NCBI RefSeq assembly: GCF_011046735.1
Contig: NZ_CP049258.1
Location: 620,001 to 684,000, forward strand
Length of the DNA stretch: 64,000 bases
DNA from: Nordella sp. HKS 07
GTDB taxonomy: Bacteria > Pseudomonadota > Alphaproteobacteria > Rhizobiales > Aestuariivirgaceae
Direction of reading: 5' to 3'
In this document: in pieces, positions 7,640 through 53,460 of the stretch
Numbering within the stretch: position 1 is the first letter of the stretch
How the letters are laid out: each line of letters begins with the position of its first letter
Translations under genes and position numbers: made by a program
Notes under the pieces: generated by a model
Seen by the model: only the letters and a program-made list of their open reading frames with translations
The model's database searches: none
What the model was told of the DNA's origin: nothing

Positions 7640-8266
7640 GTTAAGATTGTGGAAAGGTCACCTCATTCAATATCTGGTGACTCGCAGAATCATCCGCGCC
7701 AGGGCGAGAATGATGAGCGACGAGCGCCTCTGAGAGAAAAAGCCGCGAAGAGTACCATCCAGCTCAGTCCCCGCGGGTGGCGCGCGTCCTTCCTCCCTTC
7801 AGGGCCATGGAAGCGAACATGCCGAACATTGTTCGCCGAATTTCGCAGGTGTTCGGAGCGAACGAACACGAACACACTCCTTTAGGAGTGTTCGTATGTT
7901 CGCCACCTTGTTCGGTGACTTAGCCCCTAAACCGCAGTTCCGAATATCCGCTTCCGGGTGCGTAGCGGACATCTTTGCTCAGGCCGTGGAGTTCCGCTTA
8001 TGACCCTAACCGGACCTCAGAAGAACTAGGTGAACCGTCACTGGACTGCGTTGTCCTGGAGGTCGTTGGCGAACTATCCGGCATTTGGGCGGACAGAACC
8101 TCCATAACGAATGCGGCCGCCGCTTTCTCGGAAGTACCCATTGATTCGGGAGGCTTGCTGTTTGTCTCTCGAAGCTGTCCGGGATGACCACAGAAATGTC
8201 TCCTTGCCAAGAAACTTACGCGTTCGGTATGACCGCGTGATAGGTTTCCTTGTCGAGGAGCGATAC
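7640..8266. other. Intergenic stretch with an inverted repeat
   Basis: No convincing gene. An 8-bp inverted repeat ACACTCCT/AGGAGTGT with a 2-nt loop lies near 7874-7891. A TCCGCTT...AGCGGACAT motif, also seen around the neighbouring cyclase genes, lies near 7948-7970. Confidence 0.4.
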
Positions 8267-10030
8267 ATGGCCGAACAGAGGAAACTCGCGGCTATCCTGG
8301 CGGCAGATGTGGTTGGGTTCAGCCGGCTCACCGGTGCGGATGAAGATCGCACTTTGGCGCGGTTGCGGGCGCTGCGCAGCGATCTGATCGATCCAACCAT
8401 AGCAGTCCATAAGGGTCGGGTGTTCAAGCGCACCGGCGATGGAGCCATCGTCGAGTTCCGCAGTGTAGTGGATGCTGTGCGCTGTGCTATCGAGGTGCAG
8501 AATGCAATGATCGAGCGCAATGCCGGCGTGCCGACGGAGCGGCGCATCGAGTTCCGAATTGGCATCCATGTTGGCGACGTGGTCGAGGAGAGTGACGGCG
8601 ATTTGATGGGAGATGGCGTCAATATCGCCGCGAGACTACAAGGGGTGGCCGCACCCGGCGCCATTTGTCTGTCGGAGGACGCCTATCGTCAGGTGAAAGC
8701 CAGGCTGGATCTCTTGGTCAGCGATCTTGGCGAGACGAAACTGAAGAACATTGCCGATCCGATGCGAGTTTACTCGCTGCGGGTTGGTGCCGAGGCAAAG
8801 GCGAAGCCGGAGCCGGGCGCGCCCATAGCAACTTCGGAAATGCGCGACAAGCCGTCTATCGCGGTCTTGCCCTTTCAGAATATGAGCGGTGATCCCGAAC
8901 AGGGCTATTTCGCCGATGGAATCTCCGAAGATATTATTACGGCCCTCTCAAAGCTGCCGCAACTTTTCGTGATCGCGCGCAATTCATCCTTCACCTTCAA
9001 GGGCAGGAACGTGAACGTACAAGAGGTGGGCAGGAGCCTGGGCGTACGCTATGTGCTGGAGGGCAGTGTCAGGAAGTCCAACAACCGGGTACGTATCACC
9101 GGGCAGCTGATCGATGCGACGACTGGCGGACATCTGTGGGCGGAGCGTTTCGATCGCGAACTGACCGATATCTTCACCGTGCAGGACGACGTGACGCAGC
9201 ACATTGTCGGCGCACTCGCACTCAATCTGACGGAAAGTGACAAGCAGCGGCTGACGACTGAGCATACCGACAACCTTGAAGCCTATGACAGTTTCCTGCG
9301 CGGCCGAGAGCAAGTGTGGCTGCTCACAAAGGGGGCAAACGCCCAGGGGCAGAAATTGTTACGGCGCACTATTGAACTGGATCCGACATTCGCCCCTGCA
9401 TATGCCTTCCTCGCTTGCGCGCACAATCTCGACTACGTGAACCGCTGGAGCCCGGTACCGTCGGAATCGCTGGAACAGGCGGATAAGGCAGCAACACGGG
9501 CGGTTTCGCTAGACGATCAATATCCGTACGCGCACTGGGCGAGAGCCATCGCCTATCTTTATATGCGACGACACGATTTGGCTATCCAGGAAGCTAAACG
9601 CACGATCTCCCTCGATCCAAATCTTGCCTTCGGCCATGAAGTGCTCGGTACTTCCCTGCACTTTTCGGGCAGGTCCGTGGAAGCAATTGCATGTTTCGAC
9701 CGAGCAATGGCCTTAGACCCTTATTTTCCGGACGTATGGCTCCATTTCTACGCTCAAGCGGTGTTCCAACTTCGCCGGTATGACGAAGCTGTCGGGATCC
9801 TCAAGCGGCGAATTGACCGCAATCCTCACACCGATGCCTCCCGCGTGCTGCTGGCGGCGAGCTATGGTCATCTGGGCCGCTTCGACGAGGCACGTGCCGA
9901 ATGGCAGGAAGTGTACCGTATCAATCCCGACTATTCCCTGGAACACCGCCGCGATGTGCTGCCATACAAGAATCCCGACGATTTCGAACTGATCATCGAA
10001 GGGCTGCGCAAGGCCGGCATCCAACAGTGA
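8267..10030 (+). CDS. Class III adenylate cyclase with FlgO/TolB-like and TPR regions
   Basis: About 587 residues. Residues 1-190 form a class III nucleotide cyclase domain (AADVVGFSRL with the metal-binding Asp, RTGDGAIVEF, GDGVNIAARL) that should make cAMP. A FlgO/TolB-N-like domain follows (SIAVLPFQNMSGDPEQGYF, HLWAERFDRE) and then TPR repeats (for example LDPTFAPAYAFLACAHN). No transmembrane helix is apparent. Start: ATG 8267 is preceded by GAGGAG at proper spacing; the open frame extends to 8111 but lacks a ribosome site. Soil alphaproteobacteria carry many such fusions. A frameshifted paralogue lies just downstream. Confidence 0.9.
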   Translation: MAEQRKLAAILAADVVGFSRLTGADEDRTLARLRALRSDLIDPTIAVHKGRVFKRTGDGAIVEFRSVVDAVRCAIEVQNAMIERNAGVPTERRIEFRIGIHVGDVVEESDGDLMGDGVNIAARLQGVAAPGAICLSEDAYRQVKARLDLLVSDLGETKLKNIADPMRVYSLRVGAEAKAKPEPGAPIATSEMRDKPSIAVLPFQNMSGDPEQGYFADGISEDIITALSKLPQLFVIARNSSFTFKGRNVNVQEVGRSLGVRYVLEGSVRKSNNRVRITGQLIDATTGGHLWAERFDRELTDIFTVQDDVTQHIVGALALNLTESDKQRLTTEHTDNLEAYDSFLRGREQVWLLTKGANAQGQKLLRRTIELDPTFAPAYAFLACAHNLDYVNRWSPVPSESLEQADKAATRAVSLDDQYPYAHWARAIAYLYMRRHDLAIQEAKRTISLDPNLAFGHEVLGTSLHFSGRSVEAIACFDRAMALDPYFPDVWLHFYAQAVFQLRRYDEAVGILKRRIDRNPHTDASRVLLAASYGHLGRFDEARAEWQEVYRINPDYSLEHRRDVLPYKNPDDFELIIEGLRKAGIQQ

Positions 10031-21903: not shown

Positions 21904-22070
21904 GGACGGTTACCATCTGACCAAGAACCGCTTCCACGCTGGTGCGCACTCGGAGTGCGGTAGGTTGATAGCGATAAGAGTAACTTCGCCCCGACGTATG
22001 AGCCATCCGATCCGATATGGGACAAATATTGGACAGGACGAACTCAAGCCAACTAAGTATTTGAAATGAT

Positions 22071-22116
22071 TGGCGCCCCCTAGGGGACTCGAACCCCTGT
22101 TTCAGCCGTGAGAGGG
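22071..22116 (-). repeat. Left attachment site: 46-bp copy of the tRNA-Glu 3' half
   Basis: Identical to 53385-53430 and in the same orientation. It runs from the anticodon loop (CTCTCAC) to the encoded CCA. About 13 bases to the left (22058-22070) also match with one change. On its right side the tRNA sequence stops and element DNA begins, so no whole tRNA exists here. Confidence 0.9.
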
Positions 22117-22315: not shown

Positions 22316-23695
22316 ATGGCACGGACATTGAACGAAGCGCCAGTCACCACAGCCAATGCCCGCTCGAAACTCGTAACGGGTGAATATGCAAGGCGGCTCG
22401 ATGCCGACGCGGCGCTCTGGTACCGCAAGGGCGTCAGGGGTGGTGTCTGGTTTGCCCGATGGCGCAATCACGGGCCGGGTGCGAACTACAAGCAGAAGCC
22501 GATCGGGCCAGCCAATGACCTCAACGACAAGCCGACGGACGGCCTGTTTACTTTCCTGCAGGCTGAGAAACGGGCGCGCGATATCATTGCCGAGGCTCGC
22601 CAGGCTATCACCGCGGAAGCGGACGGGCCGGCGCCGACGGTGCGCTCTGCCGTCAAGAGCTACGTCGCCGAACGCGACGACCGCGCCAGCCGCCGCAAGG
22701 GCCTAGCGGTCCGTTCTGATGCCGCTCAGCGCCTGGGGCGCTACGTGCTCGGCCATACCAAGCGCGGCAAGCGGAAGGCCATTCCGGCGGCGCCGTTGGC
22801 GGACGCGGCGCTGCATGCCCTGACAGAGACGGACCTCAAGAAATGGCGCGCCAGTCTGCCAGCACAACTCAAGGCCACGACGCGCCAGCGGCTCATCAAC
22901 GACGTGAAAGCCGCCCTCAACAGCGGCTATGAGGCGCACCGTGCGACCATGCCGGCATCGCTACCTACCATCATTAAGCATGGCCTCAAGGCCGAAAAGA
23001 TCGACGATGACGAGGCGGTGCCACTGGCACGCGAAAACCAGATACTCACCGATGCCCAGGTCAGCGCCCTGATTGGTGCTGCTCGCGCGGTCGATGCGGA
23101 ACAAGGCTGGGACGACGACTTGTTCAGGATCATCCTCGTGCTCGCAGCGACCGGCGCTCGCTTCTCGCAGATCGCGCGCATGAAGGTCGGCGACGTCCAG
23201 AGAGCGCATGGCCGATTGATGGTCCCGGTATCGCGCAAAGGGAAAGGAAAGTCAGGCCAGATTGCCGTGCAGGTGGGCCGAGATGTGCTCGACGAACTCC
23301 AGCGTGTTGTGACTGGCCGCAAGCCGGACACGCGCTTGCTGGAGCGCTGGAGGTTTGAGCAGCGGCCGGGTGGGATCGAATGGCATCGAGCCGACCGCGG
23401 TCCCTGGCTGAGTTCGAGCGAGCTTGTTCGGCCTTGGGGCGAAATCCGACAGCGCGCCGGGCTGCCCAGTGCAATCCCCTACGCATTGCGTCATTCATCG
23501 ATCGTTCGAGGGATCCGGGCGAACCTCCCGATCCGCTTGGTCGCCGCATTGCACGACACGTCGGTTCCGATGATCGAACGTCATTATTCAAAATGGATTG
23601 TGGACGGTCTCGAGGAGCTGGCGGCAAAGGCAATCGTGCCGCTCGTGCCGCAGGACAGTGGGGGGAAAGTGATTATCCTGAAGAGCGGCATGTAA
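22316..23695 (+). CDS. Tyrosine recombinase (integrase)
   Basis: About 459 residues. The core-binding region lies near residues 90-220. The catalytic domain shows Arg in TGARFSQIARM, Lys in SRKGKGKSG, Arg in YALRHSSIVRG (Tyr replaces the usual first His), His in LHDTSVPMIERHY and the nucleophile Tyr in HYSKWI. It should catalyse crossover at the tRNA-Glu 3' half next to it. ATG 22316 follows GGAGGAG; the open frame extends upstream into the attachment site. Its stop overlaps the start of the next gene by one base, implying coupling. Confidence 0.9.
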   Translation: MARTLNEAPVTTANARSKLVTGEYARRLDADAALWYRKGVRGGVWFARWRNHGPGANYKQKPIGPANDLNDKPTDGLFTFLQAEKRARDIIAEARQAITAEADGPAPTVRSAVKSYVAERDDRASRRKGLAVRSDAAQRLGRYVLGHTKRGKRKAIPAAPLADAALHALTETDLKKWRASLPAQLKATTRQRLINDVKAALNSGYEAHRATMPASLPTIIKHGLKAEKIDDDEAVPLARENQILTDAQVSALIGAARAVDAEQGWDDDLFRIILVLAATGARFSQIARMKVGDVQRAHGRLMVPVSRKGKGKSGQIAVQVGRDVLDELQRVVTGRKPDTRLLERWRFEQRPGGIEWHRADRGPWLSSSELVRPWGEIRQRAGLPSAIPYALRHSSIVRGIRANLPIRLVAALHDTSVPMIERHYSKWIVDGLEELAAKAIVPLVPQDSGGKVIILKSGM

Positions 23696-24366
23696 TGAGC
23701 GAGTCACCCGCCCCCGATGTCGACGCCATGATCGCTGCTGCCTCAGCGCTGCTCCCGGCCGAGGCTCTGAAAGCGGCCGTAGAAGCGAGTAGGAGCAGGC
23801 TGTGGATGAAGCTTATCGCAGGGGGACATCCTTTCCATCCCCCTCCGCCGGCTTATCGTACATCCTGGCTGGGGCGCATTTACTACTGGGTGTGGCGCCT
23901 GGGTGTACGACTGGACGGCGTTACGGTGGAAAAGCTTCTTGCTCGGGCCAGAGACGGCGACAAATCCGCCGATAACCTCGTGCGCGGATTGGCCGCCCAT
24001 TGCTTGCGCGAGCGCATCGCCATGCCGCCCTGCCTAAGCGAGTATGCCGCGGACAAGATGTTGGAGAGCATCCATATCTCCGAGAAAGCGCGGCGGTTGG
24101 TGGAGAACTACCCCCGCGATCATATGATCTTGAATGCGGTTTATCGCATATCCAAGGATTTTGGTATTCCAGCGACATGCAGTTGGAATGCTGGGTCCAG
24201 CACGCCGAAATCCGCCTGCGCAATCGTCTCCGCGGCCCTTGCCCGTAATAGCATTCATATCTCCGAAGATGGGGTCAAGAAAATTTGGAATCGCAAGAGC
24301 AAGGACTTCGAAAAAATGAAGGTCGTCGACACGCTTATGGGAATAAATGAAATAGAAAGCTCATAG
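23695..24366 (+). CDS. Hypothetical protein coupled to the integrase
   Basis: 223 residues starting at TAATG, overlapping the integrase stop. Mostly helical, with a Pro-rich stretch (HPFHPPPPAYR), an aromatic segment (GRIYYWVWRLG) and a basic C-terminus. I do not recognise a domain. The tight coupling to the integrase suggests a role in excision, regulation or maintenance of the element. Confidence 0.6.
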   Translation: MSESPAPDVDAMIAAASALLPAEALKAAVEASRSRLWMKLIAGGHPFHPPPPAYRTSWLGRIYYWVWRLGVRLDGVTVEKLLARARDGDKSADNLVRGLAAHCLRERIAMPPCLSEYAADKMLESIHISEKARRLVENYPRDHMILNAVYRISKDFGIPATCSWNAGSSTPKSACAIVSAALARNSIHISEDGVKKIWNRKSKDFEKMKVVDTLMGINEIESS

Positions 24367-24469
24367 GACATGTGACGGCTTCACGTGTCCCCGTGTCATT
24401 CGTATCCGGTTCGCATACTTCTCCCACACACGCACTGGCGGTTCGGTGCACAAACGTGGAGAAGTTTTA

Positions 24470-24679
24470 ATGTCTCAAGATGAAGTGCCGACGAAACGCC
24501 GACTCGCGCATTCGTTTGAGTCTGCGGCGGAAGCATCCGGCGTGGGTCGATCCTCGCTTTACAAGTACGCCAAGGCCGGCCAGCTCAAAGTCCGCAAGGC
24601 GGGTCGCCGCTCGATAATCCTAGATGACGATTTGCGCGAAATGCTCGCGAACCTTCCCCGCTGGGAAGTCAAGTGTTGA
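24470..24679 (+). CDS. Small HTH protein, excisionase-like
   Basis: About 69 residues. The pattern SFESAAEASGVGRSSLYKYA, then AGQLKVRKAGRRSIILDDDL, is a MerR/excisionase-type winged HTH that binds DNA near attachment sites. ATG 24470 has GTGGAGAAG upstream. It lies between the integrase pair and the polymerase-like gene, in the same direction, as expected for a recombination directionality factor or a repressor of the module. Confidence 0.7.
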   Translation: MSQDEVPTKRRLAHSFESAAEASGVGRSSLYKYAKAGQLKVRKAGRRSIILDDDLREMLANLPRWEVKC

Positions 24680-24748: not shown

Positions 24749-26080
24749 ATGGCGGATGATCTCATAAGCAAGCGCGTTTTCGCGCGCCCATTGCGGTTCG
24801 ACCTCGATGTTGATGCAATGGCTCTGTTCCAGCTCATCGGGACGTTAGCCTTTGATGATGCGGCTCGACGCATCATGGCGCATCTCGCTGCAGAGGCCGC
24901 AGCCAGCCCGGACGGCGGCTGGATTCATTACGCACGCGCCAGGAATTGGTACTCAAACCGACGCTATCTGCATGAAGTGCAGACCTACGCGAATGTCATG
25001 CGTGCCGTTGCCGGTCTTGAGAAAGAGGGGCTGATTGAGCATGTGAAATCGGAGCCCGGACGGCGCGGCACCGAATCCTTAATGCGCGCTTCTCGGCGGC
25101 TTCTGCAAATAATGCCGTCGGCGACACAATTCCTGAACACGAAGGATCCGGAAGTAATCTATCTGATGAAGAGGGAACAGACCTTCGAGAAGAACGGGCG
25201 GAAGTGGACAGAGCCGGCAAGGTCGATCCCGTATGAGGATACAGACGGGACCAGGCGCATGCGGCGGGACTTGCGATCCATCAATGAGGGCGTCGCCGGC
25301 GTTGAACTCCGGCATCCGAAGATAGGCATCATTCGCCCCGGAACGCCAATTCCGCGCCTGGGCAAGAGCAACCCCGGACCCGCGTTTATGGGAATGAGGC
25401 GGAAGTTTACCGAGAGATTCGATCAGCATGGCCGCTTCTATGCCTGGTGGCAAAACCTGCCCGGCAAAGAACGCGGGCTGCTGCTGCTCGACGGCGAGCG
25501 GGTTATCGAGGAAGACTATCGCCAGATTCATCCGACTCTGCTCTATGGCATGCGCGGTATTCGCCTGGAATGCGATTTTGACGCCTACACAGTCGACGGC
25601 CTTCCCCCGGAATTGCGCCCGCTGCTCAAGGTTGTGTTTAATGCGATGGTGAATGCGCGTGGGCGCCAAGGTCTTCACTTCACCATCACAGACAGGGCCA
25701 GGGAACTCACCGCGGCGGGCGAAATCCCGCCGGGCTTTGATGGGCATGCAGCCGCTGTCCTCCTCATGGATGCCATGTTGAAGCGGCACGCGACTATCGA
25801 AGACGCGTTCTTCAGCGATGCCGGTCTGACGCTCATGCGCGCCGATAGCGATATGGCGGAAGACGTCATGCTCACGCTACTTCGCGACGGGATTGTTTCC
25901 CTCGGCATTCATGACAGCTTCATTGTCCAGGCCCGCCATGGGGGAAAGCTCACGGAGACCATGGAGCGCGCCAAGGCCGTCATGCTCGACAAAATGAGCG
26001 GCCGAAACGTCGTTAAACTCACCCCCCGGAAAGAACGGGTCAGGAACGGGGCCAAGCTATTGATCCAGAACGAAAACTAG
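24749..26080 (+). CDS. Family-A polymerase-like protein with N-terminal winged-helix-like region
   Basis: About 443 residues from ATG 24749. Residues 1-130 are helical with basic patches, like plasmid replication initiators. The C-terminal half has the three palm motifs of family-A DNA and single-subunit RNA polymerases in order: motif A EEDYRQIHPTLLYG (D256), motif B RPLLKVVFNAMVNA with the R-x3-K spacing (R290, K294), and motif C GIHDSFIVQ (H388-D389). No exonuclease domain is present. Relatives are usually annotated as hypothetical. Polymerase or primase activity is inferred from the motifs only. The neighbours suggest a role in copying the element. Confidence 0.6.
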   Translation: MADDLISKRVFARPLRFDLDVDAMALFQLIGTLAFDDAARRIMAHLAAEAAASPDGGWIHYARARNWYSNRRYLHEVQTYANVMRAVAGLEKEGLIEHVKSEPGRRGTESLMRASRRLLQIMPSATQFLNTKDPEVIYLMKREQTFEKNGRKWTEPARSIPYEDTDGTRRMRRDLRSINEGVAGVELRHPKIGIIRPGTPIPRLGKSNPGPAFMGMRRKFTERFDQHGRFYAWWQNLPGKERGLLLLDGERVIEEDYRQIHPTLLYGMRGIRLECDFDAYTVDGLPPELRPLLKVVFNAMVNARGRQGLHFTITDRARELTAAGEIPPGFDGHAAAVLLMDAMLKRHATIEDAFFSDAGLTLMRADSDMAEDVMLTLLRDGIVSLGIHDSFIVQARHGGKLTETMERAKAVMLDKMSGRNVVKLTPRKERVRNGAKLLIQNEN

Positions 26081-28052: not shown

Positions 28053-28252
28053 TGAGATGTCCAACGTGCCCTATGCGACCGAGTTCCGCGGGAGCATGGA
28101 CGCAAGCGCGTCTACTTGGGGTGTACCCTCTGTGGACGTCTACTGACCGGCCCAATCCCGTGCACTATGGGTTTGTAACGACATAGTTGACAGCAACGAC
28201 TCCGTGGTCTAAGAGCCATAGTGGACACACACCCGGACGGAGACCACGCACC

Positions 28253-28770
28253 ATGTCAACGCATATCGGATACGCCAGAGTGTCCACCACCGATCAGAAC
28301 ACCGACACTCAGGCTGAACGGCTCAAGGCCGTAGGGTGCGCCGTGATCCGCAAGGAGAAGGTTTCCGGTAAAAGCCGAGATGGACGCAGTGAACTGGCGA
28401 CGGTTCTGGAGTTCATCCGGCCCGGCGACGTCCTGACCGTGGTAAAGCTCGACAGGTTGGGCCGTAGCAGAAGGGCGCGCACCTCCGCGTCCTCGAACCG
28501 GCGATCAGCACCGACGGGCCGATGGGCAAGGTCATGCTCACCGTTCTCGGCATGGTCGCTGAGATGGAGCTAGGCTTCATCAAGGAGAGGCAGCTCACCG
28601 GCATCGCGAAGGCGAAGGCTGCAGGGGTCTACAAGGGAAGGCCGGTCAAGCTCGACTGGAAGAGGATCAAGAGCATGAAGGCGAGCGGTGCTGGCGCGAC
28701 GGAGATCGCGAAGGCGCTGGGGTGCAGCCGGGGCATGGTCTATAAGGCGCTCAACGCTCCCGCCCGATAA
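28253..28770 (+). pseudogene. Serine resolvase with an internal deletion and frameshift
   Basis: The N-terminal part is a typical resolvase (IGYARVSTTDQNTDTQAERL, with the nucleophile Ser), reaching LDRLGRS near 28470. About 14 codons are then missing and the frame changes to HLRVLEPAISTDGPMGKVML, followed by the C-terminal HTH (GATEIAKALGCSRGMVYKAL). The catalytic domain is therefore incomplete. Its 3' end lies inside the 1.1-kb duplicated segment. Confidence 0.75.
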
Positions 28771-32336: not shown

Positions 32337-33587
32337 ATGAATATCCGTCACCTTCTCGATCCTGAACAAGTACGCCTGGCAAGAAGGCGTAAGGGCGGGC
32401 TTACTGCTGCTAGACATGTGCTGGCGGCCGTCACTCTGACGGTCGGCGTTGCCGCGCTAAGCGTTCCTGCCTGGGCGCAAACGGAAGACGAGCTAGCCAA
32501 GCAATACAAGATCGAATCCATGAAGCAGGCGCTGGAGACGAAGGAGCGCTACGATCTCTATGGCCTGCGCTTCGCCAGTGACCAGTCGGCAGTCCCGGCT
32601 GACGCGCAATCGCTCCTGGACGACATTGCGGCGACGCTCAAGAACTTCCCTGAATGGCATTTGAGAATTGTCGGTCATACCGACGCCACGGCTGATCCGC
32701 AGCACAACCAGGCCCTGTCGCTCGACCGCGCCAACGCCATCAAGGCGGGGTTGGTCGAACGCGGCGTTGACGAGCAAAGGCTGGCTACGGCCGGCGCCGG
32801 CGAAAGCCGGCCTCTGGCCGGCAACGATACGCCTGAGGGGCGTGCTCTGAACCGCCGGGTCGAGCTTATTCGATTCACCGACTCGGCGGAGGCCAAGCGC
32901 CTGCTCAAGGCGATGTCGGATTATCTGGATGCGCAGAAAGCGATATCGTTCGACTACGATGCGGCGCTCGAGGTCGTAACCAATGATAAACAGAAGCTGG
33001 CGCTCTCGAGTTCCGGCATGGTGACGCTCAACCGTCCGGATAAGATCCGTGCGGCGCGCGCCGGCGGCTTCGTGGACGTCGAAACCCTGTTCGATGGCAA
33101 AACCCTGACCGTGCTCGGAAAGAACGCAAACAAATACACCCAGCTTGAAGTCCCCGGCACGATCGATCATTTGATTGACGAGTTGAGGACCAAATACGAC
33201 CGACCCCTGCCTGCCGCCGATCTGTTGGGGACGAACGCCTACGCCGCCTTGATGGAAGACGTTTACGACTCGAAAGATCTCGGCAGTGGAGTGATCAACG
33301 GCACCGAGTGCGATTTTCTCGCTTTCCGCAAGGACGAGGTGGACTTGCAGGTCTGGATCGCCCACGGAGATAGTCCCTATCCGTGCAAATATGTCCTGAC
33401 CTCGAGGCTCGTCACCGATGGACCGCAGTACAGTGTGGAGATCCGGAATTGGAGCACCGGCGACAAGGCCATGAAGGATGACTTTGCGTTCCAGAACGCG
33501 ACGAACGCGGAGAAGATCGACCTGAAAGACTTGCAGGACAAGACGAGTGAACTTCCCTCGAACTTTGCAATGGGAGGCAAACAATGA
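32337..33587 (+). CDS. OmpA-domain + DUF2092 fusion, exported
   Basis: 416 residues. After a signal peptide ending near VPAWAQ, residues 60-185 form an OmpA-like peptidoglycan-binding domain (LRIVGHTDATADPQHNQALS and RVELIRF). Residues 190-410 match DUF2092, a LolA/LolB-like lipid-carrier fold (LKAMSDYLDAQKAISFDYDA, VTLNRPDKIRA). Proteins of this kind probably act in the periplasm, perhaps moving lipids or lipoproteins while tethered to the wall; this is inferred. The stop overlaps the next gene (ATGA). A version without the OmpA part is encoded at 47106. Confidence 0.8.
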   Translation: MNIRHLLDPEQVRLARRRKGGLTAARHVLAAVTLTVGVAALSVPAWAQTEDELAKQYKIESMKQALETKERYDLYGLRFASDQSAVPADAQSLLDDIAATLKNFPEWHLRIVGHTDATADPQHNQALSLDRANAIKAGLVERGVDEQRLATAGAGESRPLAGNDTPEGRALNRRVELIRFTDSAEAKRLLKAMSDYLDAQKAISFDYDAALEVVTNDKQKLALSSSGMVTLNRPDKIRAARAGGFVDVETLFDGKTLTVLGKNANKYTQLEVPGTIDHLIDELRTKYDRPLPAADLLGTNAYAALMEDVYDSKDLGSGVINGTECDFLAFRKDEVDLQVWIAHGDSPYPCKYVLTSRLVTDGPQYSVEIRNWSTGDKAMKDDFAFQNATNAEKIDLKDLQDKTSELPSNFAMGGKQ

Positions 33588-33775
33588 CCATATTGAAGCG
33601 AGTTGCGATATTGGTTGCCGCTTTGATCGCACTGGGCGGTGTGAGCGAATTGGGTCGGCATCTGTCCATCCAGGGGCTGCCCGGTTTTGTCTCGACCGCG
33701 CAGGCTGAAGTCGGCCGGCCGCTGACACCGGTCAGCGTTGCCGGTGTGGCCCGGCGGACGGCGCGGCGTAACTAG
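33584..33775 (+). CDS. Small exported partner of the DUF2092 protein
   Basis: 63 residues: a signal peptide or single membrane helix, then the conserved tail AEVGRPLTPVSVAGVARRTA. ATGA overlap with the preceding gene shows translational coupling. The same pair recurs at 47106-48122 with an almost identical tail, so the two proteins likely work together. No function is known to me. Confidence 0.75.
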   Translation: MTILKRVAILVAALIALGGVSELGRHLSIQGLPGFVSTAQAEVGRPLTPVSVAGVARRTARRN

Positions 33776-34060
33776 AGCATGATCCGGAAAAGTGCGAAGC
33801 GGTTTTCCGAAAAGATCATGCGCAAACGAGAAGATCAAGCATGATGGCTTTAGAAGATCGCCTTTCTCAACCCTCATGCTGAGGTGCGACCCCGGCCTTG
33901 AGCCGGGGGAGCCTAGATCACGATCCGTTCAGATCGAACGATCTGAACGGATTAACGTGATCGATTCATAGTTGGCGCGCGATCGGACGGAAAACCGGTA
34001 CCCACTTTTCCTGATCGCGCGCCGAGCATTCATCAGGATAAAGCGACCCTTCGAGGGCCG
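33776..34060. repeat. Cluster of rhizobial-type palindromic elements
   Basis: Three palindromes in a row. GCATGATC-CGGAAAA...TTTTCCG-aaaa-GATCATGC (about 33779-33826); ATCCGTTCAGATCG/CGATCTGAACGGAT with flanking GATCAC/GTGATC (about 33916-33960); GGCGCGCGATC...GATCGCGCGCC (about 33973-34023). Similar REP-like elements are common in Hyphomicrobiales. One may also end the operon upstream. Confidence 0.7.
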
Positions 34061-34183
34061 CTTCGCGGCCACCTCGGGGTGAGGGTGACCCCCTTACCTC
34101 GCCTTCGCCGCTTTTGTCTGGGCGCGAACAGTGGGCGGAAGACAATGCTCTCGACCCTCGCAACTCTAACCCATCTTGCGGCG

Positions 34184-35431
34184 CTATCCGCCGGCCACTG
34201 GATGCGCAATTGAAAAATACGGCAAGGCAAGAAAGACCTTGGCCACCACGGCATTGGCAAGATCGACGAAGAACGAGCCGGCCAGTGTAATGAGAAGGAA
34301 GGCCTTTGGAGAAGGTCCGTAGCGATGTCCGACCTCATCCATGGTCGCCATGGCTACGGGCATGGAAGACAGGCCAAAACCCAGAAACCCGCCTGACGTG
34401 ACAGCAGCGTCATAGTCGCTGCCGAGTAGCCGGAACAGGACAAAGTAGGCAATCGCTACGGTGGCTACCACTTGAATCACGACGTTCAGCATGAGCGGCA
34501 CGATGATCACGGCCACCGAGATCAAAGGCGTCGACATCAGTGCCATCACCAGGAAAAGCTGAAGTGCCACAGCTCCACCTTTCTCGATCGGTGCAAAATC
34601 CAATGGGTGCTTCAAGATGTCCGCAACATTTGTAATGACCACGCCGGCTAACATGGCAGATAAGAACCCTGGCAGCAGCAGTCCTGCCTCACGCGCATAT
34701 TGGTTAAGCTTCTCGCCCATCAAGACAGCGAGTGCGAGAACGAAGACGGTCGACAAGAGGCTCTCGATTTGACCGGTCTCTGCCGCTTTCGACGCCTTGG
34801 CGGGTGGAGGAGCTGCAAACGTGACATCGGTCTTGGCACCCTTTAGCCCATGCAAGTTGTGTCGCTTCACAATCCAACCCGTGACGGGGCCTGAGACGAG
34901 TGCACCCGCTATTACGGCAAGCGTCGCTGCGCCGACGGCCACGACCTGTGCGTTCTGGAGTCCCTGACTCTGTAGCTCCTTGGCCCATGCCATGGCAGTG
35001 CCAGGGCCGCCAACGAATGATAGGGACCCAACCAGCACGCCATAAGCCGGATGAACTCCCCAGAACGTCGCAAGCGCAGCACCAGAGAGGTTCTGTACCA
35101 TCAGTGCGACGACCGTAACCGCACAGAGAATGAGCAGCGGTTTCCCACCGCTCTTCAATGCCGCAAGCTTTGCCGAAAGACCGATCGTCGTAAAGAAGAT
35201 CAGCAGCAGAGCGTCCTTGAGGCGAGAGCCGAAGACGACATCGAAATCGACAAATACTTGAAGAAGCAGTACAGCTACCGCAACGATCATGGCTCCGACC
35301 ACGGCGTTGGGCATATCAATGCGCCGCAAGAAGGGAACAGCTTGGCGAATGTATCGGCCCACAAAGAGTGCGATCACCCCAACGATAAGGGTTGAGAGCT
35401 CATCAAGCTCAAAACGTGTCATTGCTTCCAT
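34184..35431 (-). CDS. gltS: Sodium/glutamate symporter (GltS family)
   Basis: 415 residues with about ten transmembrane helices in two inverted halves. It carries the GltS hallmarks: LLIFFTTIGLSAKLAALKSG, LVGSLSFVGGPGTAMAWAKE in the first re-entrant loop and GFLGFGLSSMPVAMATMDEV in the second. It should import glutamate with sodium across the inner membrane. It is the last gene of an apparent operon with the AspT-type exchanger and decarboxylase. Intact. Confidence 0.9.
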   Translation of the reverse strand: MEAMTRFELDELSTLIVGVIALFVGRYIRQAVPFLRRIDMPNAVVGAMIVAVAVLLLQVFVDFDVVFGSRLKDALLLIFFTTIGLSAKLAALKSGGKPLLILCAVTVVALMVQNLSGAALATFWGVHPAYGVLVGSLSFVGGPGTAMAWAKELQSQGLQNAQVVAVGAATLAVIAGALVSGPVTGWIVKRHNLHGLKGAKTDVTFAAPPPAKASKAAETGQIESLLSTVFVLALAVLMGEKLNQYAREAGLLLPGFLSAMLAGVVITNVADILKHPLDFAPIEKGGAVALQLFLVMALMSTPLISVAVIIVPLMLNVVIQVVATVAIAYFVLFRLLGSDYDAAVTSGGFLGFGLSSMPVAMATMDEVGHRYGPSPKAFLLITLAGSFFVDLANAVVAKVFLALPYFSIAHPVAGG

Positions 35432-35561
35432 GATCTGACCACCACCCCATTGCGACGATCAGGGCATTCACTCAGCCTGAAGGTCTTTCCAACTGGTCGT
35501 TGCCACTGTCCGATCAACAAGAACGGACACGCTGACGTCCACGATTCAAGCAATTCACTTA

Positions 35562-37259
35562 CTATGCCAGGATCATCGCGAAGTACCCGAAAACGGTCAA
35601 CAAGACGCCCGACACGGCATAGGCCACAGGGAAGCCAATCCATGGTACATTGCTCTTGATCTCAACGGCGGCTTCTCGGCAGGGGCCGGAGTGGCTACGG
35701 GCGCCGGCAACGCCGCCCATCAACACAGCCGGGTTGATCTTGAAGACATGATAGCCCAGTGCCCATACGATGACCGGCGGGATCGAGCAGGCAATGAAGC
35801 CGATGATAAAGATCTTCAGCGCCAGTATGCCGGTGAGCTGCGTCAGCAACGAGTTGCCGGCATTGATCCCGACGATCGCTACAAAGACGATGAGGCCAAG
35901 GTCTTCAAGGATGTTGCGGGCCGCATTCGGCGTGTTGCCGAAGAAGCGGAGCCGCGAGGCCATCGACGACACGATCACACCCGATACCAGCAGGCCACCG
36001 GCATTGCCGAGTCCGATGGAGGCACCGAAGGCCGGGAACTGAATGGCGCCGATGAGAAAGCCGAGGATCATACCGAGCGCCAGCGTGAGCAGGTCGGTTG
36101 CCGTGCTCGGCCGCACAACCCGTCCGAACAGCGACCCCACGCGGCTGACGGCATCTTTGAGGCCGACCACCGACAGGATATCCATGCGCTGCAGCTTGGT
36201 ATTCGTTCCGATCGGGATATTGACGCCGCCACGCTCCAGCTTGACCAGCTGGATCTGGTCCACATCCGGCAGGGCCCGCAGTTCGGCTTGCGACAGTTTC
36301 AGCATATCCTTGTTGGTGACGACAATCTCAGCCGCGTCGAGCGGAATGTCGAGCGCCGTCTTGTCTGAGACTTCCTGACCGATGAGCCCCATCTTCTCGG
36401 TCATCAACTCGCGGCGGCCACCAAGCGCGATGATGTCGTTGGCCGCGAGCTTGAGTTCCGGCGAGACCTGGAGGGGGTGGCCATCCCGCACGACATTGAC
36501 CACGCGATACTCCGGGTGCGCCCTCAGCAATTCTCCGATGGTCTTACCGATCCAGGTCTTGTTCTCCAGCCGATAGGCGCGCAGGCCGCCGGTCGTCCAG
36601 CCGCTGAGCGTCGGCGTGTCGCCACTCGCCACACCGAACTTCTTTTCGTACTCTCTGGCGCTCGCTTCGGCGTCGACGCCCCACCATTTCGGCAGGTACT
36701 TGGTGATCAAGATGATGCCTACGGTACCCCAGATATAGGTGATGCCGTAAGAAAGCGCGATCATCGAGCTGACCTGCTCCGGCGATGTACCTGCGGGCAG
36801 CGTGAGCACGCCGGCGTTCACCGCTTCTTCGGCAGAGCCGATGGCAGCAGACATGGTTTGCGAACCAGCAAGTATGCCACCTGCGGCGCCAGGCGGAAGA
36901 TCCATGAAGCGGACGCCAACCACAACGAGCAAGAGGCCGACGACGCAGCTGACGATCGCCAGTAAAGTGAACTTCAGGCCATCGCCGCCGAGGCTGTTGA
37001 CGAAGGATGGCCCCACACGGAGACCAACCCCATACATGAAGAGATAGTAGAACATCGATTTTGTGAAGTTGTTGAGTTCAAGCTTCACGCCATAAGCCGA
37101 ACCCCAGACGGCCAGGCCGCAGCCGACGATGATCGCCGCCGCGACCATGCCGAGACCATAGCCGCCGATAGTCTGGCGCCCGATCCACACCGCCAATCCA
37201 ACGGTCAGAAACAGCAAAATGAAGGGATTGTTGCCCAGCCACTGGAAAAAACCCAACAT
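35562..37259 (-). CDS. aspT: AspT-type amino-acid exchanger (AAE family)
   Basis: 565 residues. Two membrane halves each begin with an AspT/YidE duplication domain, separated by two RCK-C (TrkA-C) domains around residues 200-370 (RLENKTWIGKTIGEL, DIIALGGRRELM). Signature loops GGILAGSQTMSAAIG and GGVAGARSHSG lie in the halves. The founder swaps aspartate for alanine during decarboxylation and so makes a proton gradient. It lies 24 bases behind the decarboxylase, implying that the exchanger imports its substrate and exports its product. Substrate assignment is inferred. Confidence 0.85.
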   Translation of the reverse strand: MLGFFQWLGNNPFILLFLTVGLAVWIGRQTIGGYGLGMVAAAIIVGCGLAVWGSAYGVKLELNNFTKSMFYYLFMYGVGLRVGPSFVNSLGGDGLKFTLLAIVSCVVGLLLVVVGVRFMDLPPGAAGGILAGSQTMSAAIGSAEEAVNAGVLTLPAGTSPEQVSSMIALSYGITYIWGTVGIILITKYLPKWWGVDAEASAREYEKKFGVASGDTPTLSGWTTGGLRAYRLENKTWIGKTIGELLRAHPEYRVVNVVRDGHPLQVSPELKLAANDIIALGGRRELMTEKMGLIGQEVSDKTALDIPLDAAEIVVTNKDMLKLSQAELRALPDVDQIQLVKLERGGVNIPIGTNTKLQRMDILSVVGLKDAVSRVGSLFGRVVRPSTATDLLTLALGMILGFLIGAIQFPAFGASIGLGNAGGLLVSGVIVSSMASRLRFFGNTPNAARNILEDLGLIVFVAIVGINAGNSLLTQLTGILALKIFIIGFIACSIPPVIVWALGYHVFKINPAVLMGGVAGARSHSGPCREAAVEIKSNVPWIGFPVAYAVSGVLLTVFGYFAMILA

Positions 37260-37283
37260 ATTCGCGCCTCCCCAAGCTCGCTC

Positions 37284-40001
37284 CTATTGTGCGGCTCTCG
37301 ATGCAGCGGACTTGCCGCGCAGCTTTTCCGGCCTGATCAGTTTCAGCCCCTTCGCGGATTCGTATCCATGAATCTCCTTGACGTCGAGCTTGCGCATGAA
37401 GCCGATCGCGTCTTGCGTCAGGACCTGGCCGGGTACCATGATCGGGAAGCCCGGCGGATACGGAATAACGAAGTTTGCCGAAACCAGATCCGGACCTTTT
37501 TCCAGCCGCTTGTTGATTTCGGGACTGTTCAGCGGAATGTACTCGCACGACGATTCGTCATAGGCCATGAAGAAAGCGGTCCGCATGTCGCCTTCGTTCG
37601 TATGCTTGCCGGCATTGCCCCTGAACGCGTCATGGAAGCGGCTGAAGTTCGGAAGATCGGGCACGTCATGCATTAGACTCTTGGTTCGCGCCGCAAAACC
37701 CTTGCGCTCGCCCTCGCCGCCGGTCGCGAAACGTTCCTCGATCTCGCCGCAAATCTCGACGAGAACGCGAACGAGATGGGCAATGTCACTGCGGGTATTG
37801 TTGATGTTCGATTGCAGCAATACGGAATTGCGCGATGTCTTGTTGACCTGGATGTTGAAACGGCTTGCCAGCAGGCTCTTGAATTGAGTTCCGTCAAAGC
37901 CGGCGTTTCCGCACACAAGGGTCATGCGCGTCGGATCGAGATAGAACTCGTCCTCGCGCATCGCCTTGACGATATCGCCCCACGTCGTACCCGGCACCAG
38001 ATAATCGACGAAACCAGACTGGCGGAACGCCTCGGGAATCAATTCGTCGGCGCCGAGCACCTTGAAGTACTTCGAGATCACGGGATGCGAGTTGACAATC
38101 GCCCTGATCTTCAAGGCAACGGAGATCGCGTTCATGACCAGGCCATAGCCTTCGAGCTCCATCTGGCGCCGCGCCACATCAAGGCTTGCGATCAACTGCT
38201 GGTTAGGGCTGGTCGAAGCATGGGTGAATATGGCCTCGTGGAACTGGCTTTCCACGGATCCGAAGTCGACGTCCTTAACCAGCACCATGGAACCCTGCCG
38301 TATGGCCGACATGGACTTGTGGGTGGAATTGGTCTGATAGACGCGCAAACGCACCTTGCGCGGATCGGGAACAAGCCGCGTTGTCATCAGCTTTTCGCGC
38401 GACGGTTTTGGCCCCAGATCCTTCTGCTGTTTTTCATAGGCTGCGACCGAGGCGGGATCCTGCAGCCAGCTTTCGATGGCGGCTGCGGCGCCCATGCCGG
38501 TCCGCGGCCTGAGGAAGGGCGACCAGCGCGCGAAGCCCGACCATGCTTCATCCCAAAGGAAGATCAGATCCGGCTTTATGGCGAGGCACTCCTCCATCAC
38601 CCGCCGCGTATTGTACATATGGCCGTCGAAGGTGCAGTTGGTGAGATCGAGAAGACGGAGGCGGTCGAGGCGGCCCTCGTCACGCAGATCCAGCAGCGCC
38701 TTCTTGATGGACTGCAGCGGCACCGCGCCATACATCGAATACTGAGTGAGCGGAAACGCCTCAACATAAAGCGGTTGACCACCGTTGAGCACCAGGCCGT
38801 AATGGTGTGACTTGTGACAATTGCGGTCGACAATGACGATATCGCCGGGAGCGACCAGCGCCTGGACCACCATCTTGTTGCTCGTTGACGTTCCATTGGT
38901 CACAAAGAACACGTGATCGGCGCCAAAGGCGCGCGCCGCCATGTCCTGGGCTTTCTTGATGTTGCCCGTCGGCTCAAGAAGGCTGTCGAGGCCTCCCGTG
39001 GTGGCGCTGCTCTCGGCCAGAAACAGATTGATGCCGTAGAACTCGCCCATGTCGCGAATCCATTCCGATTGGAACACCGATTTGCCGCGGGCGATCGGCA
39101 AAGCGTGAAATGTGCCGATCGGGCGCTGCGCATAACGCTTCAGATTGTCGAAGAACGGTGTTTCAAAGCGCTTCTGAATTCCCTCCAGAACCGCGAGGTG
39201 AAGCTCCAGCAGCTCTTCCACGGCATAGAAAATCCGCGTAGCGCAGGCGGCCGCGGGATCGGAAGCGAGTTTCTCGACGGCGCGGTCGGTGGTCACATAG
39301 ATGTCGAGGTCCGGACGGAGATTCTTCAGGATGCCTGCAAGCCTCAAAGCGGAAGCGTCTGCCGCCAGGGCACCCATCGTCTGGTCAAGGATGCGGCGCA
39401 ATACCGGCGCGTCGTGGCTTGATCTGAAGGGCACGCCTTCTGCGACGATGACGGCAAGAATCTGCGGGTTAACAATGGCCGCACAGAGCGCGTCCTCAAA
39501 GCTTCCGACGATGACCGGTTCGTAGATGAAAGAATCCTCGACCCGCCGCAGCCGACGGAATTCCGCGCTGAGGGCGGCCCAGCGCGAAGCGGGTTGCGGA
39601 GTCACGAGCAATACCTCGAAATAGGGCCGCCGCGCATCGCGTCCTGCGATCACGCTCGGCAGCAATTCGGGCAACGCATCGGCGCTCTCTGACGCCTGAT
39701 CTGTTTCGGCCTGATGCGAATAGGACTTCGTTAGAATCGCATTAGAAAATCGGCTTATCAGTTCAGCGGTGGCGCCAGCATCGCCAGCGGCAATCTTCTC
39801 ACGCAGGCGGCTCATCAGCCGAACGCCAGGATAGGCATGAAACTCTTCGAGGGTGGAGATCTCGCCCAAGCTATCCTCGACCGCAGCGCGGCTGCCATTG
39901 CCAGAGACCCACTTCTGGGCGGCCGTGAGCGTGTCACGCCAGCGATCCGAACGGGCTGACTGCATGGCGAAGAAATTGTCGATCCGATCAGGGGCGGCCA
40001 T
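37284..40001 (-). CDS. PLP-dependent Orn/Lys/Arg-type decarboxylase
   Basis: 905 residues, in the size range of the large acid-induced decarboxylases plus an extended N-terminus (receiver-like wing). The PLP domain shows VTNGTSTSNKMVVQAL, DRNCHKSHHYGLVL with the ring-stacking His, DEAWSGFARW, and the Schiff-base Lys562 in NSTHKSMSA. A C-terminal Orn/Lys/Arg-C domain ends the chain. Such enzymes release CO2 from a basic or acidic amino acid and consume a proton. The adjacent AspT and GltS genes hint at an acidic substrate (aspartate or glutamate), but the fold family usually uses basic ones. Intact. Confidence 0.85.
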   Translation of the reverse strand: MAAPDRIDNFFAMQSARSDRWRDTLTAAQKWVSGNGSRAAVEDSLGEISTLEEFHAYPGVRLMSRLREKIAAGDAGATAELISRFSNAILTKSYSHQAETDQASESADALPELLPSVIAGRDARRPYFEVLLVTPQPASRWAALSAEFRRLRRVEDSFIYEPVIVGSFEDALCAAIVNPQILAVIVAEGVPFRSSHDAPVLRRILDQTMGALAADASALRLAGILKNLRPDLDIYVTTDRAVEKLASDPAAACATRIFYAVEELLELHLAVLEGIQKRFETPFFDNLKRYAQRPIGTFHALPIARGKSVFQSEWIRDMGEFYGINLFLAESSATTGGLDSLLEPTGNIKKAQDMAARAFGADHVFFVTNGTSTSNKMVVQALVAPGDIVIVDRNCHKSHHYGLVLNGGQPLYVEAFPLTQYSMYGAVPLQSIKKALLDLRDEGRLDRLRLLDLTNCTFDGHMYNTRRVMEECLAIKPDLIFLWDEAWSGFARWSPFLRPRTGMGAAAAIESWLQDPASVAAYEKQQKDLGPKPSREKLMTTRLVPDPRKVRLRVYQTNSTHKSMSAIRQGSMVLVKDVDFGSVESQFHEAIFTHASTSPNQQLIASLDVARRQMELEGYGLVMNAISVALKIRAIVNSHPVISKYFKVLGADELIPEAFRQSGFVDYLVPGTTWGDIVKAMREDEFYLDPTRMTLVCGNAGFDGTQFKSLLASRFNIQVNKTSRNSVLLQSNINNTRSDIAHLVRVLVEICGEIEERFATGGEGERKGFAARTKSLMHDVPDLPNFSRFHDAFRGNAGKHTNEGDMRTAFFMAYDESSCEYIPLNSPEINKRLEKGPDLVSANFVIPYPPGFPIMVPGQVLTQDAIGFMRKLDVKEIHGYESAKGLKLIRPEKLRGKSAASRAAQ

Positions 40002-40407
40002 TGCAGTACCCTCCAGGCTCTGAGCAATCTACTGTTATCAACCCGCGCTTCGCGGCTCATACCGACAGTGGTGCGAACTTTTTTCGCCATGGTGCAATGA
40101 ACGGACACGCATATCCGGCCGACATTGCTGAACCGACCCTAAGTGAATCTTATCGGACAACTGTCGATTGCGCAACGTTGGCATTACGTGCACCTCGAGC
40201 GATTGCCGGAAACGCTCGTGATCTATGGCAAACGACTGCCCGGCAATTTTCCTCCCGGCAGGCGGCTGTCCGGCATCGAACTCGCCGGCAAGGCTCTGTG
40301 CGGCACCCGCCGCTCCGGCCAGCGCCGCGAAGATGCGGTTGCACACGCCCTGCGGCTTCAGCGGATGAACCGGTTGTACAGCGTCTTGTGTGTCATCGAC
40401 GCGCGCC

Positions 40408-40726
40408 TGTTCCTGATGGTGACATACGTAATCAAGAAGGCCGTTCACGATTGGAACGATGAGCGTGCCGCTGTCATAATGAGAAATTGCCGCAAAGCCA
40501 TGCAGCCAAACGGGAAGGTGCTCCTGGCCGAGACGCTTGTGCCGTCGGGCGAGGAACCCGACCGCATCAAGAGTATCGACGTGGTCATGCTCGCCGTCAC
40601 CGGCCGCCTGGAGAGGACGTAGGCACAGTTTGCAAGCCTGTTCGACGCCGCCGGGCTACGGCTTGAACGAGTGATTCAGACCAGAGGACCCACTTCCATT
40701 CTTGAGGCGTCTCCGGCCTACGGATG
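40408..40726 (+). pseudogene. O-methyltransferase C-terminal fragment
   Basis: Encodes KKAVHDWNDERAAVIMRNCR, QPNGKVLLAETLVP and, after an in-frame TAG at 40621, AQFASLFDAAGLRLERVI and SILEASPA. This is the SAM-binding C-terminal part of a family-2 O-methyltransferase. The N-terminal half is missing. Confidence 0.6.
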
Positions 40727-41047
40727 AAGGTCTCCCCGAGCGAGTTTAATGGGTATTGAGCCTGGTACCTGGCTAGCTTGCTTAAGCCGTAGGCGAAAAC
40801 GGAACGCTGCGGGGACGCACTCGTCCGACCGGACAAGGTGTATTGCAGACCCTGATCGCTCGCTCATGAACTTGTGCCGTTTCGGCTTTTCGGCGCTTTT
40901 TTGGGTGTTCTGTTTGCGGTGTTTTTTGCTATGGTTCCCGCTAGCCCGGGACAACCGGACCCCATCGCCGAGCCCCCCGCCGGAAAAGGTAGACCAGCTT
41001 ATCAAACTTGCTCGCCGATCCCTCGGCATCACGCTTGGAGGTAAGTG

Positions 41048-42059
41048 ATGAACACAAGGCAAATCGTTCGCTGGTCGCGCATAGCGGCCCTCGCGACACT
41101 CGTTAGCGCGCTGTCATTCGCGGCGCAGGCACAGGACTATCAAGCCGCGGTGAATGCGGCGCTGGCCAAGTACAAGGATCTCAAGGAAGGCAAGAACGCC
41201 GACTACATTCCCGCGTTAGCAAAAGTGGACTCGAATATCTACGGTATCGCCTTGGTCACCGTGGACGGCAAGGTGTATAGCGCCGGCGATCTCACCTCGG
41301 AAGTTTCAATCCAGTCGATCTCCAAGGTCTTTACAATGGCAAAGGTGATGGAGGAACAGGGACCCGAAGCTATCGCCAACAACATGGGCGTGGATGCGAC
41401 CGGACAAGCCTTCAATTCCATCGAAGCGGTTGAGCAATACAAGGGCTCGGAAATGAATGCCATGGTAAACCCCGGAGCCATCACGGCGACGAGCATGGTG
41501 TCCGGAAAATCGCGGGACGAAATTTGGAACAAGATTCTGAACTTCCATAGTGATTTCGCCGGTCGACCGCTCAAAGTCAATCAAGAGGTCTTTAAATCCG
41601 AAGCCGAGACCAATCAACGCAACCAAGCCATCGGCCGCCTGATGTACGCGTATGGACACATCAAGGCTAATCCGGATCAAGCCACCGACATCTACACCGA
41701 GCAGTGTTCCATCAGCGTAAACGTTAAGGATTTGGCGACGATGGCGGCGACGCTGGCCAATGGCGGTAAGAATCCGGTAACGGGCAAGCAAGTCATGAAA
41801 GCCGAAAACGTTCCCGAAGTGTTGGCGGTCATGGCCACTGCCGGACTGTACGACGATTCCGGCAAGTGGTTGTTCCGCACCGGCCTGCCCGCCAAGAGCG
41901 GCGTCGGCGGCGGCATCATCGCCGTCTCGCCGGGCAAGTTCGGCATCGCCGTGATCTCCCCCGCCGCTCGATGCCGCCGGCAACAGCGTCAAAGCCCAAA
42001 ATGCCATCGCTGACATTTCTAACGCCGTCGGCGGCAATCCCTACGCGCCGAAGAAATAG
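41048..42059 (+). pseudogene. glsA: Periplasmic glutaminase (GlsA type), frameshifted near the end
   Basis: Signal peptide (LATLVSALSFAAQAQ), then a serine beta-lactamase-fold glutaminase with the S-x-x-K catalytic motif in SIQSISKVF and conserved NPGAITATSMV, NQAIGRLMYAYG and SGVGGGIIAVSPGKFG. It should hydrolyse glutamine to glutamate and ammonia. At a C5 run near 41950 one extra base shifts the frame; the family ending PLDAAGNSVKAQ continues in the next frame to TAG 42057. About 34 residues are replaced in the product, so activity is uncertain. ATG 41048 follows GGAGG. Most family members are cytosolic, so the signal peptide is notable. Confidence 0.75.
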
Positions 42060-42136
42060 CTACCGGCTGAGGATGGACCGACATAAGACCCATGGATGGT
42101 CCCGGCAAGACAGCGCGCGTCGCTGACTTGCCGGTG

Positions 42137-42768
42137 TTAGCGCAAAAGCGCCTCATCGCGCTTGAGGAATTCGCGTATGTGTCCAAGCAATTCGCAATCG
42201 CGGATCGTAATGTCAACGGCGGTCGTCATGTCCTTGCATCCCGTCCGTCGCGACCCCTTTTTGCAACAGAGCGTCCAAGCAGAGCCGTCGCCGGGTCTAT
42301 CAGCAGCCTCGACGTTGGCGTGCCACAACGATCCAGAGAATGTGAACATATCGCCTTTGGTATAGCTACGGCCTGTTTGCCACGTGCCAGCATAACGGGG
42401 CGTGGACTGCTTCTCGATCTCGGCGAGACGCTCCTCGATGTTCACGGTGTACAGCCCGTCAGTCTCTCGGTAGATCCGGACGTGCTCTTCCAGCCAGTTG
42501 CACCATTGTCGTCCACATTGGGGTCGCCCATGAAAAGGGGACCTATCGGCTTCTTGTATCAGGGCGATTACGTCCTCTTTCGGAGCATGCTCGTCAGGGA
42601 ACTTGGGAAGGTCAATCTGCGAGGCGACTGATGCAGCTTGAACCCTCTCGCCCTTGCGTCCCGCAGGCGTTCCGCGAACGTGTTGCGGCTGATGCCGAGC
42701 GCCACTGGCTCGATGCCGTGAAGGCCATAAAGGTCAATCCTGTCTCTCCTGAAGCTTGAGCGGGTCAC
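42137..42768 (-). pseudogene. Prophage fossil: HTH/phosphoesterase-type protein joined to a tail-type domain
   Basis: The start encodes an HTH (EPVALGISRNTFAERLRDAR), followed by FMGDPNVDDNG and, after a frameshift, EEHVRIYRETDGLYTVNI, as in a phage metallophosphoesterase-like family. The end (MNIEERLAEIEK, YAGTWQTGRSYTKGDMFTF, GSLWHANVEAADRPGDGSAW) is a carbohydrate-binding-like module common in phage proteins. The pieces are fused and broken. Confidence 0.5.
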
Positions 42769-46162: not shown

Positions 46163-46319
46163 TATCGACCGGGCGGCTCCCGATCCAGCTCTGGCTTCAG
46201 CTATTGCGGGGCTGAACGGACGTAGATCAGACCTGGTGCGTGCAGAACGCGCTTGTTTGACGGCGCCGTGCTACAATGATTGGAATATTTTCGTGCACTC
46301 GTCCTTGCCTCCAAAGCGC

Positions 46320-52994: not shown

Positions 52995-53384
52995 TTACCC
53001 ACCAACCGCGAAGACGACGAAGCCAGTCAGTATCCACATCGCGGCAGCTTGTTGCGCCCTCGACTGCCGGGAGAGGGGACGGTGAGTGCCTATCCGACGG
53101 GCACTCAACCTCAATCGCCGGACGCCGAAACTAGGACGGACCCTAGGACGAAAAAAGAAGTGCTTAAGAAATTACAAATAAAAACAATAATTTAGGTCGT
53201 AAAACTGGCGGAGAGGATTTCGAACCACCTCAAACGCGCACCAGGAAGTCGGCAAGGGCGTTTCACTACCAGCGCTCACCTTCGACCTTGCGCAGCAGAG
53301 CTTTCCGTGTGCCCGCGTGTGCTGACGTTTATTCGTCCGGTATTCGACGATAAGGCTGATTTGATCTTAACTATTTGAAAAGAT
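52995..53384. other. Right end of the element, possible tRNA-Ser remnant
   Basis: No gene seen. TGGCGGAGAGGATTTCGAACC near 53208-53228 resembles the 3' end of a tRNA-Ser read on the minus strand, with a truncated T-arm. TTATTCGNC...TATTCGACGA motifs recur at both element ends (22211-22270 and 53329-53350) and may be integrase arm sites. Confidence 0.35.
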
Positions 53385-53460
53385 TGGCGCCCCCTAGGGG
53401 ACTCGAACCCCTGTTTCAGCCGTGAGAGGGCCGCGTCCTGGGCCGCTAGACGAAGGGGGC
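53385..53460 (-). tRNA. tRNA-Glu(CTC), intact, host of the element
   Basis: Acceptor GCCCCCT/AGGGGGC with discriminator G and encoded CCA, anticodon stem-loop CGGCC-CTCTCAC-GGCTG (anticodon CTC) and T-arm AGGGG-TTCGAGT-CCCCT. Its 3' half (53385-53430) is duplicated at 22071-22116. The 3' part was therefore supplied by the element on integration. Confidence 0.95.

Follow-up and report, generated by a model that had tools for sequence, protein, structure and literature searches.

The polymerase gene and its protein

The stretch of DNA analysed here, 64,000 nucleotides of Nordella sp. HKS 07 (contig NZ_CP049258.1, positions 620,001 to 684,000; "the window" below), carries a gene for a 443-residue protein, P0001, in which an earlier note made from the bare sequence had read the motifs of a family-A polymerase. 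P0001 is a mobile-island family-A polymerase, by its features of the already known TV-Pol kind, and a distant relative of DNA polymerase I (Pol I). Its residues are numbered from the ATG at 24749, and the frame has an alternative in-frame TTG start 24 bases 5' of that ATG. The gene and its parts, in window coordinates, are:

24749..26080, + strand, open reading frame of the TV-Pol-type family-A polymerase gene (P0001, 443 aa)
24812..25138, + strand, winged-helix region, residues about 22-130
25397..25999, + strand, palm and fingers core, residues 217-417, from the structure model (R229 in 98/98 proteins)
25514..25531, + strand, motif A, from D256 to H261, the latter standing where Pol I has its steric-gate Glu
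25616..25654, + strand, motif B, R290-x3-K294, plus N298 and N302
25910..25921, + strand, motif C, HDSF, residues 388-391

By computation, P0001 has a family-A palm-and-fingers fold with a winged-helix-like N-terminus and no nuclease domain. The motifs on which the earlier note relied are present as it had read them (D256 in EEDYRQIHP, R290-x3-K294, HDSF at 388-391), and so is an RRM-like palm, as judged from Foldseek matches to family-A palm and fingers, T7 and mitochondrial RNA polymerases among them, and from the two conserved Asp residues. In the structure model a beta-hairpin is formed by strands 217-221 and 227-231, the latter holding R229; a single long helix, 166-183, takes the place of the thumb, where a second helix was not identified; and the N-terminus, on the same chain as the core, is a winged helix with strands, with no plasmid Rep proteins among the matches listed, an absence to which we attach no weight.

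An hhalign comparison with 12 polA C-termini and one SP6 DNA polymerase (E 0.0021, at a probability of only 13%) aligns D256 with the D of DYSQIE, R290/K294 with motif B and the two HD pairs with each other. In the profile comparison the alignment with DNA polymerases extends over the whole core, that with T7-type RNA polymerases over motif C only. Standard family models recognise little of this: P0001 matches no Pfam family above cut-off (one weak MarR match falls below its own) and no NCBIfam family, sequence searches of the PDB returned no relative, and the classical family-A DNA polymerase profile PF00476 matches none of the 62 members of our family alignment, A4, at E 0.1. The T7-type RNA polymerase profile PF00940 is weakly matched by 3 of the 62 (best 0.04). 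Neither the Pfam scan of P0001 nor the 13 families matched by the A4 members at E 0.1 include a nuclease, in agreement with the earlier note's statement that an exonuclease domain is absent.

Conservation was counted in 98 proteins, namely 103 of at least 390 aa pooled from two sets, minus 5 repeats, fragments having been excluded beforehand. Core residues are kept in most or all of them (R229 of the hairpin 98, R242 98, K294 98, D256 97, H388 97, D389 97, Y280 96, R290 94, D278 90), so that the motif residues proposed from the single sequence prove to be those that homologues keep; the Ser of motif C is kept in 82. Because the catalytic residues are conserved, P0001 is likely to be catalytic. 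The sole protein without D256 and D389 is the second tandem copy on a Pseudodesulfovibrio contig (L100:6235-7572); in this tandem pair (L100:6235-7572 and 7821-9155) one copy has Gly and Glu for the catalytic Asp pair and the other has both Asp. A separate observation concerns Glu254, which precedes the motif-A Asp by two residues and is found in 90 of the 98 members, the Pol I consensus there being Ser.

Sugar-gate positions

In ungapped parts of the hhalign alignment, H261 falls on the Glu at motif-A Asp +5 (E710 of E. coli Pol I), N298 on F762 and N302 on the Pol I Tyr that we take to be Y766. Glu occurs at the gate position in 0 of the 98 proteins, which have His (72), Phe (6), Gln (5), Asn (4), Gly (3), Tyr (3), Met (2), Ser (1), Cys (1) or Leu (1) there; His is found in 55 of 62 members of A4 and is thus frequent, though not universal in the wider set. 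The N298 position has Asn in 44, Leu in 29 and Phe in 3, and the N302 position (K+8) has Asn in 76, Phe in 13 and Tyr in none, so the Tyr of motif B in T7-like RNA polymerases, presumably Y639 in T7 RNA polymerase, is also absent from K+8 in all 98. Judged from these alignments, the branch of P0001 has lost the ribose-selecting residues of Pol I and has a smaller core. We found no remark on the Glu/Tyr replacement in the main text of PMC2579912, nor in the available portions of PMC10061031, PMC7581432 and PMC11348598, and do not conclude from this that it is unpublished.

Relatives and spread

The sole PHROGs family matched by P0001 is phrog_4756 (function not assigned; E 9.6e-39), and this family is matched by 62 of 62 members of A4; its proteins from Vibrio, Aeromonas, Rheinheimera and related phages belong to the same family as P0001. 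A tblastn search with P0001 (E up to 0.01) found 187 phage records, all below 60% identity (by host, Rheinheimera 115, Vibrio 50, Aeromonas 14, plus others), and 3 plasmids. With a relative from a viral contig as query, a search of phages found 149 records, including ICP1 isolates; the hypothetical protein L158:5458-7119 of Vibrio phage ICP1_2006_C is a family member (E 4.1e-43 with A4), and one Rheinheimera phage relative carries the UniProt name DNA polymerase. The phages with phrog_4756 proteins are of about 80-145 kb, and close inspection of four annotated stretches of such phages showed no integrase, whereas P0001 is island-borne; one relative on an annotated plasmid does have an integrase.

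As a single query P0001 found no relatives in genome contigs or viral contigs, whereas alignment queries did find them, at 63 named bacterial loci and, in addition, on 5 viral contigs. The phrog_4756 profile has matches in 6/100 relatives, 32/385 genomes of the class and 25/398 of the phylum, these samples overlapping one another; the branch is therefore not rare in the class.

The island in tRNA-Glu

The polymerase gene lies near the integrase end of an island integrated in a tRNA-Glu gene, with these features:

22068..22116, no strand, left attachment (att) site, a 49-bp repeat of the 3' part of tRNA-Glu, exact copy of 53382-53430
22316..23695, + strand, tyrosine integrase (PF00589, 1.2e-8)
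23695..24366, + strand, 223-aa protein, its frame overlapping the stop of the integrase, no Pfam match
24446..24679, + strand, HTH_17 (AlpA/excisionase-like) gene, 69 bases 5' of the polymerase ATG (PF12728 4.1e-6, just above cut-off)
53382..53430, no strand, right att repeat, where the tRNA is intact
53385..53460, - strand, intact tRNA-Glu (ctc), the integration target (ARAGORN; site uninterrupted in two congeners)

The integrase and excisionase-like neighbours that the earlier note had reported are thus borne out by family matches. A third att copy, 44 kb to the left of these at G000:C1:597796, delimits a second island of 44 kb, in tandem at the same tRNA-Glu (G000:C1:597796-642070), the right end of which is window 1-22069. 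In congener G001 the sequence to the left of the third att copy (about 43 bp matched) directly abuts an intact tRNA-Glu, and congener G003 has the same junction, judged by match positions. From these junctions it follows that about 75.6 kb, in two tandem islands at tRNA-Glu, lie between sequences that adjoin in G001 and G003, the polymerase gene being in the right-hand island. On the other flank the match continues for 124 bp, through the tRNA, and is followed in both congeners by 1.4-1.7 kb of different sequence before homology resumes. The Pfam scan of the island covered 25 proteins (a crude gene pick lists 52 frames, small frames not all being included) and found no helicase, relaxase or single-stranded DNA-binding protein (SSB) family among those 25.

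Gene neighbourhoods of homologues

Among 68 loci of homologues, 35 have a tyrosine recombinase and 25 a serine recombinase, 45 having at least one of the two; for loci of at least 16 kb the proportion is 28 of 41. Site-specific recombinases are thus frequent but not constant beside homologues, the remaining 23 loci, with 13 of 13 Methylobacterium loci, being without. No recombinase was found in any of 20 polA-centred control windows (0/20 vs 45/68; p 3e-8), a contrast that is indicative only, because the case loci themselves supplied the recombinase profiles and the controls all came from the window's own order; 4 of the 20 were shorter than 17 kb. Neighbours were scanned from a list of 223 that excluded recombinases and nine loci; 103 of these were covered, and nine long ones were added later. 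Restriction-modification and defence families recur, and differ from locus to locus. No helicase was among the 24 families matched (1e-12) by the 103 neighbours. One of the nine long neighbours, a type III restriction Res subunit, gave the only helicase-like match, and a Thioclava plasmid has an annotated DEAD/DEAH protein two genes away from the polymerase; both were rejected as D5 helicases since they resemble restriction genes.

Comparison with known systems

The TV-Pol family was described in 2008 by Iyer, Abhiman and Aravind, who proposed primase and polymerase activity for it (PMC2579912). P0001 shares its minimal family-A core, its length of 400-600 residues and its lack of a nuclease, together with the absolutely conserved Arg of the hairpin, the two Asp, and the Asp and RxxxK of the fingers. 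Like the TV-Pol subset with an N-terminal domain, P0001 is found beside resolvases or integrases in mobile regions rich in restriction-modification genes. As read from its sequence, P0001 matches the TV-Pol family, and particularly this subset. One feature differs: the TV-Pol N-terminal domain was predicted to be all-helical (PMC2579912), whereas that of P0001 is modelled as a winged helix with strands. The TV-Pol thumb consists of two antiparallel helices; in the P0001 model one long helix could be identified at that place.

A second comparison is with the PolA-SSB primase CcPol-MP of SCCmec, also a family-A core on a recombinase-bearing island (Bebel 2020, PMC7581432; Rice 2023, PMC10061031; here and below, as given in the available portions of these papers). 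PolA-SSB primases are possibly a TV-Pol subset (Rice 2023, PMC10061031). CcPol is Pol I-like and retains E710 and F762, which its authors link to its dNTP preference (PMC7581432), whereas P0001 has His and Asn (family: Glu 0/98, Phe 3/98). Priming by CcPol needs the OB-fold partner MP, and a helicase is encoded next to CcPol, while P0001 has neither an adjacent helicase nor a recognised SSB and so falls outside the PolA-SSB primases as defined. By analogy, P0001 may nevertheless work like one, its winged helix replacing MP. The piPolB of pipolins, as far as the available sources describe it, is also encoded on an integrated element with its own polymerase and is able to start strands; being of family B, it is an analogue only.

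Proposed role

P0001 is probably a single-chain primase-polymerase of the TV-Pol kind, encoded on a genomic island in tRNA-Glu, and replication or priming of that island appears to be the best reading of its role. The earlier suggestion that such a fusion could replicate or prime the excised element is supported, as an inference from the fold, the conserved catalytic residues, the fused winged helix and the recombinase neighbours. The integrase and its HTH_17 partner would excise the island; the winged helix would then bind the element's DNA, and the core would start and extend DNA on it, the host helicase and replisome supplying the remaining replication functions. The copy number of the circle would be kept or raised before transfer or reintegration.

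Several results weigh against this proposal. Foldseek TM-scores are low (best 0.32 by query length), with only one PDB match below 0.001. The phage named as a carrier of TV-Pol, Ma-LMM01, gave no match at E 1 in the profile search; its gp030, which in this analysis we identify as the Ma-LMM01 TV-Pol of PMC2579912, is not significant at E 0.91 and ranks below an unrelated frame at 0.42, though it lies beside transposases and, as in P0001, has His at motif-A D+5 and Asn at K+8. In contrast to the helicase-linked TV-Pols, the polymerase gene was found with no D5-type helicase beside it, and Pfam recognised no OB-fold partner among its neighbours (two are without a family, their folds not predicted). 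No iterons or origin were seen; beside the gene there are only two-copy repeats of 15-19 nt, and therefore no origin is claimed. To these are added the 23 of 68 loci without a recombinase, including all 13 Methylobacterium loci (several of which, L080-L083 and L127, are near-copies and not independent), and the finding that CcPol primes only with MP (PMC7581432).

A rather unlikely alternative is that P0001 is a primer-dependent DNA polymerase only. It would fill gaps, or complete single-stranded element DNA, excised or incoming, with a second strand, the strands being started by host primase. CcPol without MP only extends primers (PMC7581432), second-strand synthesis is one of the possibilities named by Rice 2023 (PMC10061031), and neither a recognised SSB partner nor a D5 helicase lies beside the P0001 gene; the context of TV-Pols elsewhere implies priming, however (PMC2579912), and the fused winged helix could provide template binding.

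Given the loss of the ribose-selecting Glu and Tyr, P0001 could also be an RNA-making primase or small RNA polymerase. This would fit the absence of the gate Glu and the O-helix Tyr (each 0/98), the weak PF00940 matches (3/62, best 0.04), and the fold matches to T7 and mitochondrial RNA polymerases. We consider it improbable, since the profile alignment spans the whole core only with DNA polymerases, the Tyr of T7 RNA polymerase is missing too, and a bulky gate residue such as His, Phe or Tyr could be enough to keep ribose out. A role in defence or counter-defence, using polymerase chemistry without replicating the element, is very improbable: restriction-modification and defence families among the neighbours, loci without recombinases, and the mention of defence as a possibility for PolA-SSB primases (Rice 2023, PMC10061031) fit it, whereas the defence neighbours change between loci and phages themselves carry homologues.

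The proposed primase-polymerase has a bolder form, which we regard as doubtful: a one-chain family-A enzyme whose sugar gate, with His/Asn for Glu/Tyr, is relaxed or re-invented, and which would start strands unaided on the excised island with ribo- or mixed nucleotides, its winged helix in the role of MP. If true, a surviving form midway between DNA polymerase I and T7-type RNA polymerase would be spread across proteobacterial islands and Vibrio and Aeromonas phages. In 2020 the CcPol authors knew of no other biochemically characterised TV-Pol (PMC7581432, available portions). CcPol represents a Pol I-like subgroup, from which the P0001 branch differs in its smaller core and lost ribose-selecting residues; this branch thus offers a test of the 2008 primase and polymerase proposal, and of the sugar used.

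Other genes and copies

A truncated further copy of the polymerase gene lies in the same genome (G000:C1:5639149-5639661, - strand, a 179-aa open frame) and was set aside as a short remnant. A serine resolvase-like gene at 28187-28770 is split across two overlapping frames, the first part matching PF00239, and is apparently broken. The cargo at 32337-51217 comprises a Glt (glutamate) symporter, an Asp-Al_Ex permease, an Orn/Lys/Arg decarboxylase, a glutaminase, part of an asparaginase and two DUF2092 proteins; it looks like a glutamate and amino-acid set, perhaps for acid tolerance.
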